A program made the translations under genes and the position numbers. DNA of 64,000 nt from a bacterium (GTDB taxonomy: Bacteria; RBG-13-66-14), in assembly GCA_035528375.1 (NCBI GenBank), contig DATKYS010000051.1:1-64000 (forward strand), read 5' to 3'. This document shows, piece by piece, positions 5,259 through 57,375 of this stretch. Below the pieces are notes generated by a model, which did no database searches, was not told where the DNA came from, and saw nothing but the letters and a program-made list of their open reading frames with translations. The first letter of the stretch is position 1. Each line of letters begins with the position of its first letter.

Positions 5259-5317
5259 GCCCCTCCCTTTCTGCAGTTATTCCAAGCGTCTCATAAACAA
5301 AATTACTGAATCAGATT

Positions 5318-6085
5318 TCACGCTTTTGCTTCTTTTTTAGTCTTGGATTTCGCGACAGATTTAGCGGCCTGCTTCAAAAAGTCCGCCGCTTGTTTCGCCT
5401 CTTCGCCGTCCACAGTTTCTCTTTTAAGCACCTCATTTTGTAACTGTGCTTTAAGTTGATCCACTTGAATCTTGATGTTACCGCCAATATGCCTGAGTTC
5501 CCGCTTTAGCGCTTGAAGCATTGGCGGGCTGGTAAGGACTGCGGCAATTGAGAATTTGCTTGTTACTTGTTGCCGCTGGTAAAAAGCTGTCATGGATGAT
5601 TGTGTAAAGCCTTCCCGGCTGAGGTTGCCGAAACACTCTATTAACTGCTGGTTACGTACGTTTTTTTGCAGGAGGTTAGTTTGAAAAATCAACGATTTGT
5701 CTATGGGCTTGTGGAAGTGGATTTTATAAATCTGCCAAATTGCACCATTTGTGAGCACTACCCACTCTACACCGTGGTTTGCCCCATAGTCTAAAGCCTG
5801 CTTGATATGGCTGTCTTTAAGGGCGACGCCGATTGCTTTAACTTCAATTAAAAAACGCACATCGGCACCGACTTTAACGGCTAGGTCCACATATGTACCC
5901 CGAATGGCAAATTCTGTCGTAATTTCGGTGTACTTGTTATAACCGAGTATATCGGCAAGCATGTCAGCGATGATGACTACTGTGTCCGATTCGCTGATAT
6001 CACGGTCTTGTGCATCCGAAAGAATTGGTTGATACTTCTTGAGTTGTTGCACTATTCTATCGGAAACCTTTTTAGAAACAGCCAT
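5318..6085 (-). CDS. HsdR_N-like PD-(D/E)xK nuclease-domain protein
   Basis: The 255-residue protein contains a type I restriction subunit R N-terminal-like domain. YVDLAV (Asp67) followed by FLIEVKAIG (Glu81-x-Lys83) is the PD-(D/E)xK core, and ALDYGANHGVEWVVLTNGAIWQIY is the downstream family signature. Helicase domains of HsdR are absent, and no hsdM or hsdS is nearby, so this is a stand-alone nuclease-fold protein. The tail (about 195-255) is charged and may be helical. It is AT-richer than its neighbours and sits between two VOC paralogues, which suggests transfer. I chose ATG at 6085 over an in-frame TTG two codons earlier. It may be a defence or DNA-repair protein, or only DNA-binding. 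Confidence 0.8.
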   Translation of the reverse strand: MAVSKKVSDRIVQQLKKYQPILSDAQDRDISESDTVVIIADMLADILGYNKYTEITTEFAIRGTYVDLAVKVGADVRFLIEVKAIGVALKDSHIKQALDYGANHGVEWVVLTNGAIWQIYKIHFHKPIDKSLIFQTNLLQKNVRNQQLIECFGNLSREGFTQSSMTAFYQRQQVTSKFSIAAVLTSPPMLQALKRELRHIGGNIKIQVDQLKAQLQNEVLKRETVDGEEAKQAADFLKQAAKSVAKSKTKKEAKA

Positions 6086-6163
6086 TTCCAAACCACCCCT
6101 TTACTAAAAATTGACTAACGTGGATGGGAACCGGACGCCGCGGCCCGATCCCCCGTCAACACT

Positions 6164-6526
6164 CTAGCCCTTCGGCTTGTCCTGGTAGAGGCCGAGGAGG
6201 TTCCCGTCGGGGTCCTTGACGATGGCGAACCAGCCGACCTCGGGAATCTCGGTCTTCGGCGTGTGGATGCGCCCGCCCAGGCCCTCCACCCGCGCCAGGT
6301 AGGGCTCTATCTCGTCCACCTCGACGTGGACCAGGGTGCCGGAGCCGCCCCGCATCTTGTCCACCCGGTTGAGGCCGCCGCCGGGACCGCCGGGGGTCGA
6401 GAACAACAGGTAGTCGTCGCCCCACCCATCGAACTTCCAGTCCACAAAGAGGCCGACGAGGAAACGCCGCGTCCGCTCGAGGTCGGTGGAATCGAACTCG
6501 ACGTGGCAGATGTCGTGCTTACCCAA
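6164..6526 (-). CDS. VOC family protein (second copy)
   Basis: A 120-residue glyoxalase-fold protein related to the one at 4896-5258: FDSTDLERTRRFLVGLF, VHVEVDEIEPYLARVEGLGG and IVKDPDGNLLGLY occupy the same positions. The start appears to be TTG at 6526, with GGAG about six bases ahead; no ATG gives the conserved N-terminus. The substrate is not predictable. No ferredoxin gene follows this copy. Confidence 0.87.
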   Translation of the reverse strand: MGKHDICHVEFDSTDLERTRRFLVGLFVDWKFDGWGDDYLLFSTPGGPGGGLNRVDKMRGGSGTLVHVEVDEIEPYLARVEGLGGRIHTPKTEIPEVGWFAIVKDPDGNLLGLYQDKPKG

Positions 6527-6784
6527 GATTGACTCCTTTCGCTGAATTACCGCACCGGGATTGCTGTGGATTCTCCGCGGGACACCGAACCCGATACGCT
6601 TCCCCCCCGTCGGCGCTCCCTCCGGTCCGGGTAACGCCGGTTTTACGCAGGGAAAGGATACAAAACCGCCCCGTCTGTGGCAAGGGTTTTAGTGCTTCGC
6701 CGGACGGCGGCCCGTCGAATGCAGACTCGATTGGTCGGAACGGCCGCGCCCCCCGGTCACGACCGTGTTTTTTTCTTCCGGGTC
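6527..6784. other. Intergenic stretch with no recognised feature
   Basis: Short open frames here have no family signatures, no ribosome binding site and arginine/proline-rich translations typical of chance reading of GC-rich DNA. None of the palindromic repeats of the other gaps occurs here, which is unusual for this window. The following segment holds a candidate RNA. Confidence 0.4.
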
Positions 6785-6812
6785 TTGACGGCGGGGAAGT
6801 TTCGGCTATTTT
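6785..6812 (+). promoter_or_regulatory. Possible promoter for the candidate RNA
   Basis: TTGACG at 6785-6790 and TATTTT at 6807-6812 are 16 bases apart. The first strong stem of the candidate RNA begins 14 bases further on. Confidence 0.45.
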
Positions 6813-6819
6813 ACCCGGT

Positions 6820-6927
6820 GGCGGAGGGTGGGCGGCCCGACCCGCGTAAAAAAGCGGGGGGTTAGGAAAACCAGGGGTTCACGGGCCGCCCTCCCCTAAA
6901 CCGCCGGCCGAAAGGTCGGCTTTTTTT
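6820..6927 (+). ncRNA. Candidate structured small RNA or transcription attenuator
   Basis: GGGCGGCCCG (6830-6839) pairs perfectly with CGGGCCGCCC (6882-6891), and GGG/CCC pairs extend the stem. The 42-base interior holds two smaller hairpins, CCCGC/GCGGG (6841-6845 with 6854-6858) and GGTT/AACC (6860-6863 with 6869-6872), giving a three-way junction. A separate hairpin with a GAAA loop (6903-6920) and seven T residues ends the unit. It does not match SRP, 6S, tmRNA or RNase P core motifs by eye. It could be a stand-alone RNA of about 105 nt or a leader controlling the gene at 6987. Confidence 0.45.
6903..6927 (+). terminator. Rho-independent terminator
   Basis: A GCCGGCC stem pairs with GGTCGGC around a GAAA tetraloop, followed directly by TTTTTTT. 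No protein gene lies upstream on this strand within 4 kb, so it terminates the candidate RNA. Confidence 0.75.
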
Positions 6928-6946
6928 ATCCCCCACCCAGACGTGC

Positions 6947-6952
6947 TATACT
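6947..6952 (+). promoter_or_regulatory. Possible -10 element for the DNRLRE operon
   Basis: TATACT lies 35 bases before the ATG at 6987. No good -35 is visible; the position 17 bases upstream falls in the T tract of the preceding terminator. Confidence 0.35.
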
Positions 6953-6986: not shown

Positions 6987-7634
6987 ATGAGGGGAATCGT
7001 CATCCTCGTCCTGGCAGCCGCGGTCGGAGTCTGGGCCGCGGAGTGGATCACCGTGGAAGCCGACGCCGACAGCTACGTCTACTACTACAAAGATGACACC
7101 GAAGAAGAACCGCAGTACGTGGACGATAACTTCGGTGGAGAAGTAGAACTTTCCGCCTGGTACATCAATTTCTATCGGCGATACCCCTCGCTGATTCAAC
7201 GACGCTCCTTCATCTATTTCGATTTCGAGGGGATGGATCCCCAAAGTAGCGTTCTCGAAGCGATTCTGTCCCTTTACATCACCTACCTGGATTGGGGCGG
7301 TAGGTTCTGGGTGTATCGCTGCCGTGAAGCGTGGGATGAATACGAGGTCACCTGGAACGACCAACCGTGGTTTTCCGAAATTCTCGGTTCATGGGACGAT
7401 ACCTTCCCCCTTTACCAGTACAGCGACGTCGCGGAGCTCAATGCCGAAGAGATAGAACTGATAGTGGATAATCCGGACGACAATAACGGTATTATCATTT
7501 TGACCTCTGAGGACTGGAATTGTGTTGATTTCTCCTCGCGCGAAGGGGGCTTCCCGCCTCGGCTGAAACTCCTGGTCAGCGGGGCCGACGTCGTGGAGGC
7601 GAGCTGGGGGGAGATAAAGGCGGCGTTCGAGTAG
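6987..7634 (+). CDS. Secreted DNRLRE-type protein with SWG tail (copy 1)
   Basis: A 215-residue exported protein with signal peptide 1-18. It follows the DNRLRE/CBM96-like plan: ADSYVYYYK and VDDNFGG near the start, SFIYFDFEGM, the family hallmark YEVTWNDQPW, and SREGGFPPRLKLLV near the end. Such domains fold as beta-sandwiches in surface proteins and can bind carbohydrate. The C-terminus is VVEASWGEIKAAFE, a short tail shared with the next two genes and with two unrelated proteins at 56-58 kb. It is the first of three tandem paralogues, 8 bases before the next; AAAGGAGGAAAAA precedes the ATG. Molecular function is unknown. Confidence 0.85.
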   Translation: MRGIVILVLAAAVGVWAAEWITVEADADSYVYYYKDDTEEEPQYVDDNFGGEVELSAWYINFYRRYPSLIQRRSFIYFDFEGMDPQSSVLEAILSLYITYLDWGGRFWVYRCREAWDEYEVTWNDQPWFSEILGSWDDTFPLYQYSDVAELNAEEIELIVDNPDDNNGIIILTSEDWNCVDFSSREGGFPPRLKLLVSGADVVEASWGEIKAAFE

Positions 7635-7642
7635 GAGGAGAC

Positions 7643-8308
7643 ATGAACAGGATTTGGCTCGTTTGCGCGGTCTTCCTGGCCGCCGCGTCCGTCGCTCCGG
7701 CCACCGAGCAGGTCGTCAAACTGGAAACAGATGGCGACAGCTATGTTTGTAGGTTTTACGAGCCGTCAGTACCCCTTGAGTTTTACGTCGACGACAACTT
7801 CGGCGATGCATGGGAGTTACATGTATCGAACACGTACACGTACATTTCGGATCCGTGGTGGATGGAAGTGCTCGAAATGGCATACATGCACTTTGATTTC
7901 TCCGGGCTCGGCGAATACGACGGCGCGGATTTGGTCGAGGCTCAACTGGTATTCAATGCCACTGATGCTGTCGAGGGAGCGGTACTCGCCGCCAAGGTGG
8001 CCGGCCCCTGGGAGGAGATGAGCATCACCTACAGAAACCGACCGCCGCGGGGCGACAGTGTGGCCTCGTTCGACATGGTCGAGGGGTACAACTACGTGGA
8101 CCTCAATGTCGGCAAAATCGCGCCCTGGGTTGACGCGCCGGATTTGGCCTACGGCATCCAGCTTGACCATGGGGGGAATGGTAGTTGGGATAACTACGGG
8201 GTATTCTGCAGCCGGGAAACCGATTCACCACCGGAGCTCTGGCTGACCTTCTCGGAGCCCGCGGTCCAGGAATCGAGCTGGGGGGAGATTAAGGCGTCAT
8301 TCGAATAG
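7643..8308 (+). CDS. Secreted DNRLRE-type protein with SWG tail (copy 2)
   Basis: A 221-residue paralogue of the preceding gene. A signal peptide (1-20, ending APATE) precedes DGDSYVCRFY, VDDNFGDAWEL, MHFDFSGLGEYDGADLVEAQL and EMSITYRNRPP. SRETDSPPELWLTF leads into the C-terminal SSWGEIKASFE. GAGGAG lies ahead of its ATG. Close spacing to both neighbours implies one operon and local duplication. Copies 2 and 3 are closer to each other than to copy 1. Confidence 0.85.
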   Translation: MNRIWLVCAVFLAAASVAPATEQVVKLETDGDSYVCRFYEPSVPLEFYVDDNFGDAWELHVSNTYTYISDPWWMEVLEMAYMHFDFSGLGEYDGADLVEAQLVFNATDAVEGAVLAAKVAGPWEEMSITYRNRPPRGDSVASFDMVEGYNYVDLNVGKIAPWVDAPDLAYGIQLDHGGNGSWDNYGVFCSRETDSPPELWLTFSEPAVQESSWGEIKASFE

Positions 8309-8316
8309 GAGGCGAA

Positions 8317-8964
8317 ATGAACAACAGAGGTCGGCTCGTTTGCGCGGTCTTCCTGGCCGTCGCGACCACCGTCACGGCTACGGTCCAGGTCGTCCTGGAG
8401 GCCGACGGGGACAGCTACGTCAAATACTACGAAGAGTGGGAGAGCGACCCGGAGTACGCCGACGACAACTTCGGCGGCGAGCCTCTGATGTATGTGCTGG
8501 ATAACTATTACCAGTGGGGCGAGGAATTCGAGATACCCTTCATGCACTTCGATTTCTCGGGGCTCGGCGACTACGATGGCACGTATCTGGTCGGGGCGCA
8601 GCTCGTACTCCACGCCGCGTCTTACGCTAATGGTTTGCAGCAAGCCCACGCGGTGGGGGGCGCCTGGGAGGAGATGACCATCACATTCAACAACTGTCCG
8701 GGGGCGGGTGCCCTGTTGGCCTCCTTCTACATGGACGGTGGAGACAACTACGTGGACCTCGACATCGGCCCCATCGCGCCCTGGGTGGACGCGCCGGAAA
8801 CGGCCTACGGAATCCTTATCTTTGACACCGAGCAGGTGTGGGAGGACGATCCTCCGGGGACAATCTACACCCGGGAGACCGAAAACGCGCCGGAGCTTTG
8901 GTTGACCTTCTCGGGGCCCGCGGTCGAGGGGGCGAGCTGGGGGGAGATCAAGGCGGCGTTCTAG
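8317..8964 (+). CDS. Secreted DNRLRE-type protein with SWG tail (copy 3)
   Basis: A 215-residue paralogue. Signal peptide 1-21, then DGDSYVKYY, YADDNFGGEPLM, MHFDFSGLGDYDGTYLVGAQL, EMTITFNNCPG, TRETENAPELWLTFSG and the tail GASWGEIKAAF. It lies 8 bases after copy 2 with GGAGG before the ATG. Long identical segments with copy 2 suggest recent duplication. The transcript then runs into a repeat cluster without an obvious intrinsic terminator. Confidence 0.85.
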   Translation: MNNRGRLVCAVFLAVATTVTATVQVVLEADGDSYVKYYEEWESDPEYADDNFGGEPLMYVLDNYYQWGEEFEIPFMHFDFSGLGDYDGTYLVGAQLVLHAASYANGLQQAHAVGGAWEEMTITFNNCPGAGALLASFYMDGGDNYVDLDIGPIAPWVDAPETAYGILIFDTEQVWEDDPPGTIYTRETENAPELWLTFSGPAVEGASWGEIKAAF

Positions 8965-8976
8965 CGGTTTTTTCAC

Positions 8977-9240
8977 CCGCGGGCGACCGTGGACGGTCGC
9001 CCCTACGGGGGGCGCTGGATATTGACGTAGGGGCGGGTGTCCACACCCGCCCGTTTTTATCGACAAACCGCGATGATGTAGGGGCCGACCGACGGCGCGC
9101 CGTTCAGGTCGGCCCGCGGGCGACCGTGGACGGTCGCCCCTACGGTGAACTGCACGGTTCTAAATGTAGGGCGGGGACTTCAGTCCCCGCCGCTTTACCC
9201 CCCACCCTGACCCCCCCCAGAGGGGGGAGGGGATAGGGGA
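8977..9240. repeat. Intergenic palindromic repeat mosaic, cluster 2
   Basis: GCGACCGTGGACGGTCGC occurs at 8982-8999 and again near 9119-9136. GGGCGGGTGTCCACACCCGCCC occurs near 9030-9051, a GGCCGACCGACGG type near 9082-9114, a GCGGGGACTTCAGTCCCCGC type near 9172-9191, and CCCCCCAGAGGGGGGAGGGG near 9217-9235. The gap separates the DNRLRE operon from hutH in tail-to-tail arrangement. Confidence 0.85.
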
Positions 9241-12111: not shown

Positions 12112-12140
12112 ATTCTAGCACAGATATTCCGACTGCTCAA
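12112..12140 (-). promoter_or_regulatory. Promoter of the flavo-diiron gene
   Basis: On the minus strand TTGAGC (12140-12135) and TAGAAT (12117-12112) have a 17-base spacer, about 42 bases ahead of the start codon. Confidence 0.6.
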
Positions 12141-12199
12141 GTCGGCTATTTGCCGACCGAATCCCCCGACGGTTTTTATACGCGGTAAGGTTGAACAGC

Positions 12200-12633
12200 C
12201 GTAGGGCGGGGACTCCTTTCCCCGCCGTTTTTTTTAAGGAAGCCCTCACCCCCATCCCCTCTCCCGGAGGGAGAGGGGGGCCGCTTCGACCCTCACCCCA
12301 AGCTGCGATGATGTAGGGGCGGGTCTTTAGACCCGCCCGCGGGCCGACATGAACGGCGCGCCGTCGGTCGGCCCCTACGAGGTTGACGCGCGATTCACAC
12401 CTTAGCCGTAGGGGCGGGTGTCCACACCCGCCCGTTCGTTGCATCGGAGTGACTCAAAAGTAGGGCGGGGATTCCCATCCCCGCCGCGTTTTTTATAAGG
12501 TGGCCCTCACCCCCATCCCCTCTCCCGGAGGGAGAGGGGGACCGCTACACCCCCCTCCCCGGCCCGTAGGCAAGCCACTCCCCAAAGGGGAGAGGGGGAA
12601 TAAGGCAGACCTCCCACGGGGGGAGGGAAGCTT
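12200..12633. repeat. Intergenic palindromic repeat mosaic, cluster 3
   Basis: The 600-base divergent gap between the flavo-diiron gene and the permease is mostly repeats: a GCGGGGACTCC...CCCCGC element near 12205, CTCTCCCGGAGGGAGAG near 12260 and again near 12519, GGGCGGGTCTTTAGACCCGCCC near 12318, a GGCCGACATGAACGGCG type near 12343, GGGCGGGTGTCCACACCCGCCC near 12412, and a GCGGGGATTCCCATCCCCGC type near 12465. A boundary motif TTTATAAGG next to CCCTCACC recurs. A -10-like TATAAT at 12636-12641 follows on the plus strand. Confidence 0.85.
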
Positions 12634-12673
12634 GGTATAATCACCCGGCAATCGAGCACCTGCGGAAACCCCC

Positions 12674-21559: not shown

Positions 21560-21840
21560 GAAAAAAAGCGGATGTGGACACCCGCCCCTACGGGTGAGGC
21601 GTAATTTATTCGTCACCCTCGTAGGGGCCGACCGACGGCGCGCCGTTTAGGTCGGCCCGCGGGTGACCGTGGACGGTCGCCCCTACGTCACTCAATCCAC
21701 GAGTCACGGGTCGCTGCATATCCCTTCTCCCTTTCAGGGAGAGGCTCGCCTACGGGTTAGGGTGAGGGTCAAGGTTGGGAACGTATAAAACGCGGCGGCC
21801 CGCAGGGGATGTATCCCACGGGGCCGCCCTACATGTATGC
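21560..21840. repeat. Intergenic palindromic repeat mosaic, cluster 6
   Basis: The 500-base gap upstream of the small secreted gene carries GTGGACACCCGCCCCTAC near 21573, a GGCCGACCGACGGCGCGCC type near 21627-21659, GTGACCGTGGACGGTCGCC near 21663-21681, CTCCCTTTCAGGGAGAG near 21727-21743 and a GGCGGCCCGCAGGGGATG...GGGCCGCCCTAC type near 21793-21832. From 21840 to 21952 I see nothing. Confidence 0.8.
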
Positions 21841-22465: not shown

Positions 22466-22733
22466 CGGCCTCTCCTTCTCCCTCGGTCCCGGTTTCCTCG
22501 TCCTTCTCCTCATCCTTCTTCGCCTCGGCGCCCCTCTCCAGGCCGTACTTGCGCATGTAGCGCTCGACGCGGCCCGCCGAGTCCACCAGCTTCTGCTTGC
22601 CGGTGTAGAAGGGGTGACAGGCGCTGCACACGTCCACCTTGATCTCCTTCTTGGTGGAGCGCGTTTTGACCTGATTGCCGCAGGCGCAGGTGATGGTCGC
22701 GTCCACGTACTCGGGGTGTATCTTGGGCTTCAT
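22458..22733 (-). CDS. rpmE: 50S ribosomal protein L31 (zinc-binding type)
   Basis: A 91-residue protein with the L31 core MKPKIHPEY, the zinc ligands Cys16-x-Cys18 and Cys36-x-x-Cys39, and [20 protein letters not shown]. The zinc-type (C+) form is intact. Beyond residue 68 a glutamate- and lysine-rich tail of about 20 residues extends past the usual 66-75. Its stop lies inside the start of the thioredoxin-like lipoprotein gene, so the two are coupled. Confidence 0.95.
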
Positions 22734-22881
22734 GGCTACTCCCGTAAAATGGCCCGGTGGTGCCCCTCCGACCGGTGAACGGTGGCGAACTCCATCGCCG
22801 TCAGTTGGGCTTTCATCGCAACACTCCCCCGGCCGGGGAGCGGTATGTTAATTCAATTCAGGGCCGCCGTCAACGGACCGC

Positions 22882-30059: not shown

Positions 30060-30357
30060 CGTAGGGCAGGGATTTTAATCCCCACCGCGGTTTCTACGTT
30101 CCCAAACTTCACCCTCACCCTAACCCGTGCCTCGTATTCGCGATGATGTAGGGGCGGGTCTTTAGACCAGCCCGCGGGCCGACCTGAACGGCGCGCCGTC
30201 GGTCGGCCCCTACGTTTGGTAAATGAGGAAACGGGCGACCGTGGACGGTCGCCCCTACGGGACGGATTCGCGGTTGGACGTAGGGGCGGGTGTCCACACC
30301 CGCCCGCTCCCCCCTCCCCGGTCCGTAAGCGCGCTTCCCCCAGAGGGGGGAGGGAGT
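30060..30357. repeat. Intergenic palindromic repeat mosaic, cluster 7
   Basis: A GTAGGGCAGGGATTTTAATCCCC type near 30060-30084, GGGCGGGTCTTTAGACCAGCCC near 30152-30173 (one arm mutated), a GGCCGACCTGAACGGCGCGCC type near 30177-30209, GCGACCGTGGACGGTCGC near 30235-30252, GGGCGGGTGTCCACACCCGCCC near 30284-30305 and CCCCAGAGGGGGGAGGG near 30339-30355. The part from 29927 to 30059 shows nothing else. Confidence 0.8.
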
Positions 30358-30365
30358 GGACACAT

Positions 30366-33187: not shown

Positions 33188-33430
33188 GGGCGGAATGGCC
33201 CCCCGCCTTAACGGGTGAGGCGCGATTCCGCTACATACTCGTAGGGGCCGACCGACCGGCCGGTCCTTTTTTCAAAGGTAGCCCTCACCCTGACCCTCTC
33301 CCACAGGGAGAGGGAAAACTTTCCCACGCTCTCCCCGTTATCTTTCGCGGATGCGCCTCCCCCAAATGTAGGGCGGCCCCGTGGGATGCATCCCCTGCGG
33401 GCCGCCCTACATCATCGCAGCTTTGGGGTG
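33188..33430. repeat. Intergenic palindromic repeat mosaic, cluster 8
   Basis: A shortened GTAGGGGCCGACCGACC element near 33241-33257, CTCCCACAGGGAGAG near 33298-33312, and GTAGGGCGGCCCCGTGGGATGCATCCC...GGGCCGCCCTAC at 33368-33411, a long near-perfect palindrome centred on ATGCAT. Confidence 0.75.
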
Positions 33431-33492
33431 AGGGCTGCCTTTATAAAAAACGGGCGCCCCAACGGACTCCCGCGCCAATCCTCCGCCCCGGC

Positions 33493-56271: not shown

Positions 56272-57375
56272 TTAAAACTCCGCCTTGACGGCGCCCCAAC
56301 TCGTCTGCACCACGTTGAGCTCCTCGGTGGTAAAGCTCCAGACGAAGTCGTATCTCATCTCACGACCGGTACGATCCGCCAGGCAACCGTCCACGGTGCA
56401 GGTGATGAGGTCCACCGGCAGGTCCTCGTCGGGGGTGAATGTGCAGACGACATCGGTCCAGTCGCTGTCATCAATCACGAGCGTTCCCGGAATCTCGCCC
56501 GCGGGCCGGGGATTACAGCTCGTCGAGAGGGAAGACGAACCGGCGCGCAGGGCTCTGTCTCCCGATCGCCGCGACTGGTCCTCCGCCGTGAAGACTATCG
56601 TGGAAACTTCAATTCCAAACATCCCGCTGCAACAGTGGAACACGATGTCCCTGCCCACCGGCACGTCGGATTCCCCGTCATCGGGGTCCATGCCCTCCAC
56701 CCAAGGTCGGGGGGAGGTATCGTACCCTATCGCGAATTTGATGGCGTTGTTGTAGAGCACCCAGCCGTCGCCGTCCCAAAAGTGGTAGTCACCGGGGCAC
56801 AGGTTGACGGCGGCAGCGAAGCACCATTCACTGACCGCCACCATGTCGGTGCCGTTTTCCAGGTCGGCGATCCAGATAGCGCCGCTCTCCGTCGAGATGT
56901 ACTGCCAGTAGTTGATGTGGGAAATGCTCGAAACGCCGTCCATGATGCCCCAGTAATCTTCGTAATCGCCCAGGCGGGTGCTGGAGTGATAGGTGTAGCC
57001 GCGGGTCAGGGGGCAGTAGTCAGGGTCGCTGGCGTAACGGCCGGCGATGCCCCAGCTGCCCGAGTCGTGAGCGAAGCAGCAGGATACGACGCCGCCGTAG
57101 TAGTCTAAGTAGTCGGCCAGGTTATTCCCGAAGGCCGTGGGGTCGTCGTAGGCGTAGTTGCTCCACGTGAAGACGACGCCGTAATCGTTCAGGGTGTCCA
57201 TGCTGGGGGTGGTCGTGGTGCAGTCCAGGAATGTAACGCTGTCGTAGTAGGGGTCGCCGCCGATGTAGGTTTGGGCGTCCGAGGTTGCGCCGGGGTCGGT
57301 GTGGCAGATCAAGATGTCGTACCGCCCCGCGATAGCCGCGGTAACGACCACCAAGACTAACAACGCTCTTCGCAT
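56272..57375 (-). CDS. Secreted protein with Ig-like (Big_5) domain and SWG tail (copy 1)
   Basis: A 367-residue exported protein, signal peptide 1-17 (LVLVVVTAAIAG). Residues 17-220 may form a Rossmann-like flavodoxin/GATase-type fold (DILICHTDPGATSD, DYGVVFTWSNYAYDDP), reminiscent of ThuA-like domains. Residues about 225-350 contain a SbsA/Big_5 Ig-like domain (GMDPDDGESDVPVGRDIVFHC...CTFTPDEDLPVDLITCTVDG). It ends WSFTTEELNVVQTSWGAVKAEF. The last 11 residues share the SWG-x-(I/V)KA-x-F tail of the DNRLRE proteins at 7-9 kb. A paralogue lies upstream, 34 bases away. Confidence 0.8.
   Translation of the reverse strand: MRRALLVLVVVTAAIAGRYDILICHTDPGATSDAQTYIGGDPYYDSVTFLDCTTTTPSMDTLNDYGVVFTWSNYAYDDPTAFGNNLADYLDYYGGVVSCCFAHDSGSWGIAGRYASDPDYCPLTRGYTYHSSTRLGDYEDYWGIMDGVSSISHINYWQYISTESGAIWIADLENGTDMVAVSEWCFAAAVNLCPGDYHFWDGDGWVLYNNAIKFAIGYDTSPRPWVEGMDPDDGESDVPVGRDIVFHCCSGMFGIEVSTIVFTAEDQSRRSGDRALRAGSSSLSTSCNPRPAGEIPGTLVIDDSDWTDVVCTFTPDEDLPVDLITCTVDGCLADRTGREMRYDFVWSFTTEELNVVQTSWGAVKAEF

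Follow-up and report, generated by a model that had tools for sequence, protein, structure and literature searches.

Orphan intergenic small RNAs (sRNAs) of bacteria follow a general plan, in which a structured body is transcribed from its own promoter within an intergenic gap and ends at a Rho-independent terminator. In purine-class riboswitches that work through a terminator, a three-way junction is followed by the terminator ahead of a gene. 6S RNA, of about 180 nt, is GC-rich and closed by its 5' and 3' ends, with a large open central bubble. One comparative-genomics study that sought structured-RNA candidates in intergenic regions required structure-conserving nucleotide variation between representatives (Weinberg et al. 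2010, PMC2864571).

We analysed a 64-kb stretch of DNA (the window) from an uncultured bacterium, located on contig 51 in a draft genome of 2.63 Mb, and describe here a candidate sRNA that resembles each of these systems in part. It shares with orphan intergenic sRNAs the promoter, the length of about 110 nt, the structured body, the terminator and the position in a gap, but differs in having no Rfam homology and in coming from a genome where Hfq was not detected. Like the candidates of Weinberg et al. it has a conserved intergenic fold; unlike them it is represented by two close sequences only. As in purine-class riboswitches, its three-way junction and terminator precede a gene, but it matches no aptamer family, its main stem does not exchange with the terminator, and the gene has a putative promoter of its own. 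With 6S RNA it shares small size, GC-richness and closure by its two ends, but it lacks the large open central bubble and, at about 110 nt, is shorter.

Anatomy and fold of the element

The element lies on the + strand, in the 460 bp that separate a VOC-family gene (- strand) from three tandem CBM96/DNRLRE genes (+ strand). A first-pass annotation had described a promoter-like pair, a 10-bp GC stem with extra pairs around two smaller hairpins, and an intrinsic terminator with a GAAA loop and seven T, and had noted that no + strand gene lies directly upstream. All of these were recovered in our analysis, giving a layout of promoter (6785–6812), compact three-way junction (6817–6906) and terminator (6903–6927). 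The sigma-70-like promoter, TTGACG (6785–6790)-16-TATTTT (6807–6812), has 9 of 12 consensus matches; promoter calls throughout are consensus matches of this kind. Upstream of it, a T-tract at 6769–6775 could act as an UP element. With its start placed from the -10 box and its end from the terminator, the predicted transcript covers about 110 nt (6818–6927).

The main stem, P1, pairs 6830–6839 with 6882–6891 (10 bp) and 6826–6828 with 6893–6895, closing the three-way junction with pair probabilities of 0.93–1.0, and a further 3–5 outer bp lie beyond it (6817–6821 with 6900–6905). Within the junction, hairpin P2 (6841–6858, CCCGC/GCGGG, pair probability about 0.9) carries an A-rich loop, GTAAAAAA, which reads GTAAAGA in a congeneric genome (G002, see below). 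Hairpin P3 (6860–6872, GGTT/AACC, loop AGGAA, pair probability 0.69–0.75) is identical in G002, and is followed by an invariant strand, AGGGGTTCA (6873–6881); its AACC arm can alternatively pair with GGTT at 6876–6879, with a probability of 0.10–0.16. The terminator consists of a 7-bp stem with the GAAA loop (6903–6920) and the seven T (6921–6927). At the level of sequence signals, this is what an intergenic sRNA gene is recognised by: an own promoter, an intrinsic terminator, no ORF and a place between genes.

The core (6817–6906) folds at -53.5 kcal/mol (z = -3.7), and none of 200 dinucleotide shuffles was as stable. The folding z was -3.4 for the predicted transcript (6817–6927), -3.1 to -3.7 across both genomes, and only -1.8 for the wider interval of the first-pass annotation. 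A z as low was reached by only 0.6% of 2130 segments of 111 nt on both strands of the 64 kb. The window contained two promoter-then-terminator arrangements of such spacing, whereas shuffles of both strands would yield about 0.33; the other one is at 12228, inside the 12122–12673 gap, where dispersed repeats occur.

Conservation in a congeneric genome

The element is present at the same place in G002 (MAG record Ca. Coatesbacteria RBG_13_66_14), on contig 126, with 89% identity over 151 nt (E 5e-50); the exact motif is found in MFAF01000126.1. The promoter is at the same place as well (TTGACG-16-TATCTT, with 0.0 promoter-like sites expected by shuffling). Across 6817–6906 identity was 94.4%, compared with 82% for the best other 90-nt intergenic stretch, the background being the gaps of one syntenic block, with a second block left out for its unreliable gene boundaries and poorly aligning coding DNA. 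The remainder of the VOC–CBM96 gap was mostly 50–80% identical. At 4-fold degenerate sites of the neighbouring genes the window and G002 were 87% identical, and the excess conservation of the RNA over these sites alone is modest (P = 0.016). As judged from sequence, this conservation in a relative is the decisive support for the candidate element beyond chance.

The two predicted transcripts differ at 8 positions in 104 nt: two in the 5' internal loop, one on its 3' side, and two in the A-rich loop, to which the differences within 6826–6896 are confined. Two of the remaining three turn the GAAA tetraloop into GCGA, also a GNRA loop, and the last turns G6907-U6916 into A-U. By the G002 fold, 7 of the 8 are unpaired (hypergeometric P 0.005) and the eighth keeps a pair; by the window-only fold 5 of the 8 are unpaired (P 0.09), because this fold adds two weak pairs absent from G002. 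The G002 copy adopts the P1/junction structure in its minimum-energy fold, too. Between these two close sequences P1, P2, P3 and the terminator are unbroken, with one one-sided pair-preserving change and no compensatory double changes. Two G-U pairs, U6819-G6903 and G6907-U6916, fit an RNA of the + strand, since their counterparts on the opposite strand would be mismatched as A-C. In G002 the terminator keeps its stem and has a weaker tail, CTGTTTAAT, so that some read-through into the CBM96 operon is possible there.

Distribution and comparison with known RNA families

With a covariance model built from the two copies, no third member was found among 386 genomes, including 13 same-phylum relatives; the 384 genomes besides the two carriers yielded no copy. 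A search of 31 genomes for a 25-nt motif, with up to 3 mismatches, recovered the two copies and nothing else; the exact motif matched one record in genome_contigs, and the motif had no match in viral contigs. The element is single-copy in its genome, and the dispersed repeats of other gaps are absent from it, as the first-pass annotation had remarked of palindromic repeats. These repeat families (9078–9130, 12334–12390, 21617–21673, 30062–30360 and 33240–33470) are common to many G002 contigs. A weak second match in the element's own genome was set aside as lacking the loops, and weak matches in another genome (G004) ran antisense inside protein genes (polysaccharide-deacetylase-like and dehydrogenase-like frames, by eye), with an AGGA/UUCA motif shared by chance.

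The earlier suggestion of a new RNA agreed with the search of Rfam 15, in which no family reached its gathering score and the best sub-threshold model, a microRNA, scored 21.8 bits (cut-off 100). The sequence family of the candidate sRNA is new and matches no described RNA family. No tRNA or tmRNA was found in the 64-kb window, and SRP RNA gave a sub-threshold match elsewhere in the genome. 6S RNA (RF00013) had no match at the element and was not found elsewhere in the draft genome; with no open central bubble either, a 6S identity was rejected. Nor does the element fit a CsrA-titrating RNA of the CsrB/C or RsmY/Z type, as it has a single AGGA loop instead of several GGA hairpin loops and no CsrA was found, or an Hfq-dependent sRNA, Hfq being undetected. 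Both protein families were sought in a draft genome, which may miss genes.

Function and genomic neighbourhood

We favour an independently transcribed, lineage-specific sRNA gene acting in trans, and regard this as moderately probable. RNA polymerase would start near 6818 from the 6785–6812 promoter and stop at the 6903–6927 terminator, making about 110 nt. Once folded, this RNA would have a GC-rich stem of 13 bp closing a three-way junction, with one hairpin that carries the A-rich loop, a small one with the loop AGGAA, and an invariant single strand, AGGGGUUCA; from this anatomy we infer that it would act in trans on an RNA or protein target through its invariant unpaired stretches. A classical Hfq-dependent antisense mode or a Csr-titrating mode is unlikely, because neither Hfq nor CsrA was detected in the genome. 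The support consists of the fold, both transcription signals and the conservation in a second genome, and points to an orphan sRNA candidate that is probably real and of an ordinary kind, with two close copies so far. It comes from a phylum that a full-text search showed to be scarcely named in the literature. If the proposal is true, RNA regulators exist in Coatesbacteria without detectable Hfq or CsrA, and the element provides a precise sequence to seek in metatranscriptomes.

The main rival is a terminator-controlled, riboswitch-like 5' leader of the CBM96/DNRLRE operon, whose three-way junction would sense a ligand or protein and control read-through; we consider this unlikely. The element and the operon share a strand, the terminator is 60 nt ahead of the first start codon, and the junction strands and loops are invariant, as in an aptamer; the weak terminator tail of G002 also suits a leader. 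The synteny with the operon that is kept in G002 is lost together with the operon in another genome of the same genus (G003). There, the VOC gene and its promoter (TTGCCA-17-TATCCT, 6655–6683 of the window, - strand) are kept and the RNA is gone; CBM96 is reduced to the last codons of one gene, most CBM96 genes and the RNA having been lost in the same event, a joint loss that could reflect cis linkage. The contig of a further genome (G001) stops inside a CBM96 gene and is uninformative on the element. Against a leader, the RNA was not found next to other CBM96 genes of its own or related genomes, P1 does not overlap the terminator, and a separate extended -10, TGCTATACT (6944–6952, + strand), stands between terminator and gene. 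This sequence and its surroundings (...CGTGCTATACTG-TAAATG) are conserved in G002, and as a putative promoter it would serve the CBM96 genes independently. Nor did we find an antiterminator. The first-pass annotation had proposed an attenuator in which CCGG...CGG at 6815–6824 pairs with 6901–6907 and competes with the terminator. This pairing is not retained in G002, which has ACGG...AGA there, and 6815–6817 lie at or before the predicted start. Its only conserved version, GGTGG (6817–6821) with CCGCC (6901–6905), is a minor state with a probability of about 0.2; its energy cost is 1.2 kcal/mol for the window sequence and 3.2 kcal/mol for that of G002. In the window it leaves a slipped 6-bp terminator hairpin with the T-runs still after it. 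The terminator is the dominant state, and the two structures are not mutually exclusive. No switch is therefore visible. The stand-alone RNA that the annotation had offered as the other choice is the part that held, with promoter, fold and terminator conserved in the relative and with the downstream operon having a conserved putative promoter of its own. We think it quite improbable that the element represents a previously undescribed class of three-way-junction RNA that senses a ligand or protein, is restricted to a single Coatesbacteria genus and controls an operon of secreted carbohydrate-binding CBM96 proteins.

Alternatively, the gap might hold no functional RNA: a promoter region and a GC-rich inverted repeat that arose by chance would then have been preserved because the two genomes share a recent ancestor. 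GC-rich DNA folds easily, the two genomes differ little (87% identity at 4-fold sites) and the excess conservation is modest (P 0.016), yet the intergenic DNA around the element is only about 50–80% identical, the fold is rare within the 64 kb, as is the order of promoter and terminator, and the changes avoid stems; we hold this reading to be improbable. Far less probable still is a gene for a small peptide, or an RNA with a dual function. By inspection, a GTG-initiated frame of 15 codons starts at 6819 in the window, but a one-base deletion in an A-run shifts it in G002, the core has no ATG, and the conservation shows no codon pattern, with both stem arms conserved exactly.

Several features of the neighbourhood were recorded alongside the candidate sRNA. 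The divergent upstream gene (6164–6526, - strand) encodes a VOC/glyoxalase-superfamily protein with PF00903 and PF18029 matches near the cut-off. An orphan gene of low GC content that encodes an HSDR_N_2 domain lies between two tandem VOC genes, at 5269–6125; it looks like a recent insertion in the window genome because the homologous flanking blocks are only a few bases apart in G002. The downstream CBM96/DNRLRE genes lie at 6987–7634 (PF24517, NF033679), 7643–8308 and 8317–8964, all on the + strand. Copy number and sequence of this cluster (6987–8964) differ strongly among congeneric genomes, with about 41% protein identity for the first copy; the flanking genes are about 90% identical, a contrast that suggests rapid turnover of these secreted-type proteins. 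The CBM96 paralogues end in a tail, SWGxIKAxF (I or V at the fifth position; 7590–7634, 8270–8308, 8925–8964), that is also found on two other large - strand ORFs, ending at 56272 and 57410. This type of C-terminus occurs in G001 and G002 proteins and, as SWGRIKA or SWGAIKA, in G006, and might serve as a C-terminal sorting tag specific to this lineage. Finally, outside the ORFs taken as genes, a stretch at 22514–22881 reaches 98% identity to G002 across 90 nt; it lies in the second syntenic block, the one left out of the intergenic background, and could represent coding sequence or a further conserved element.
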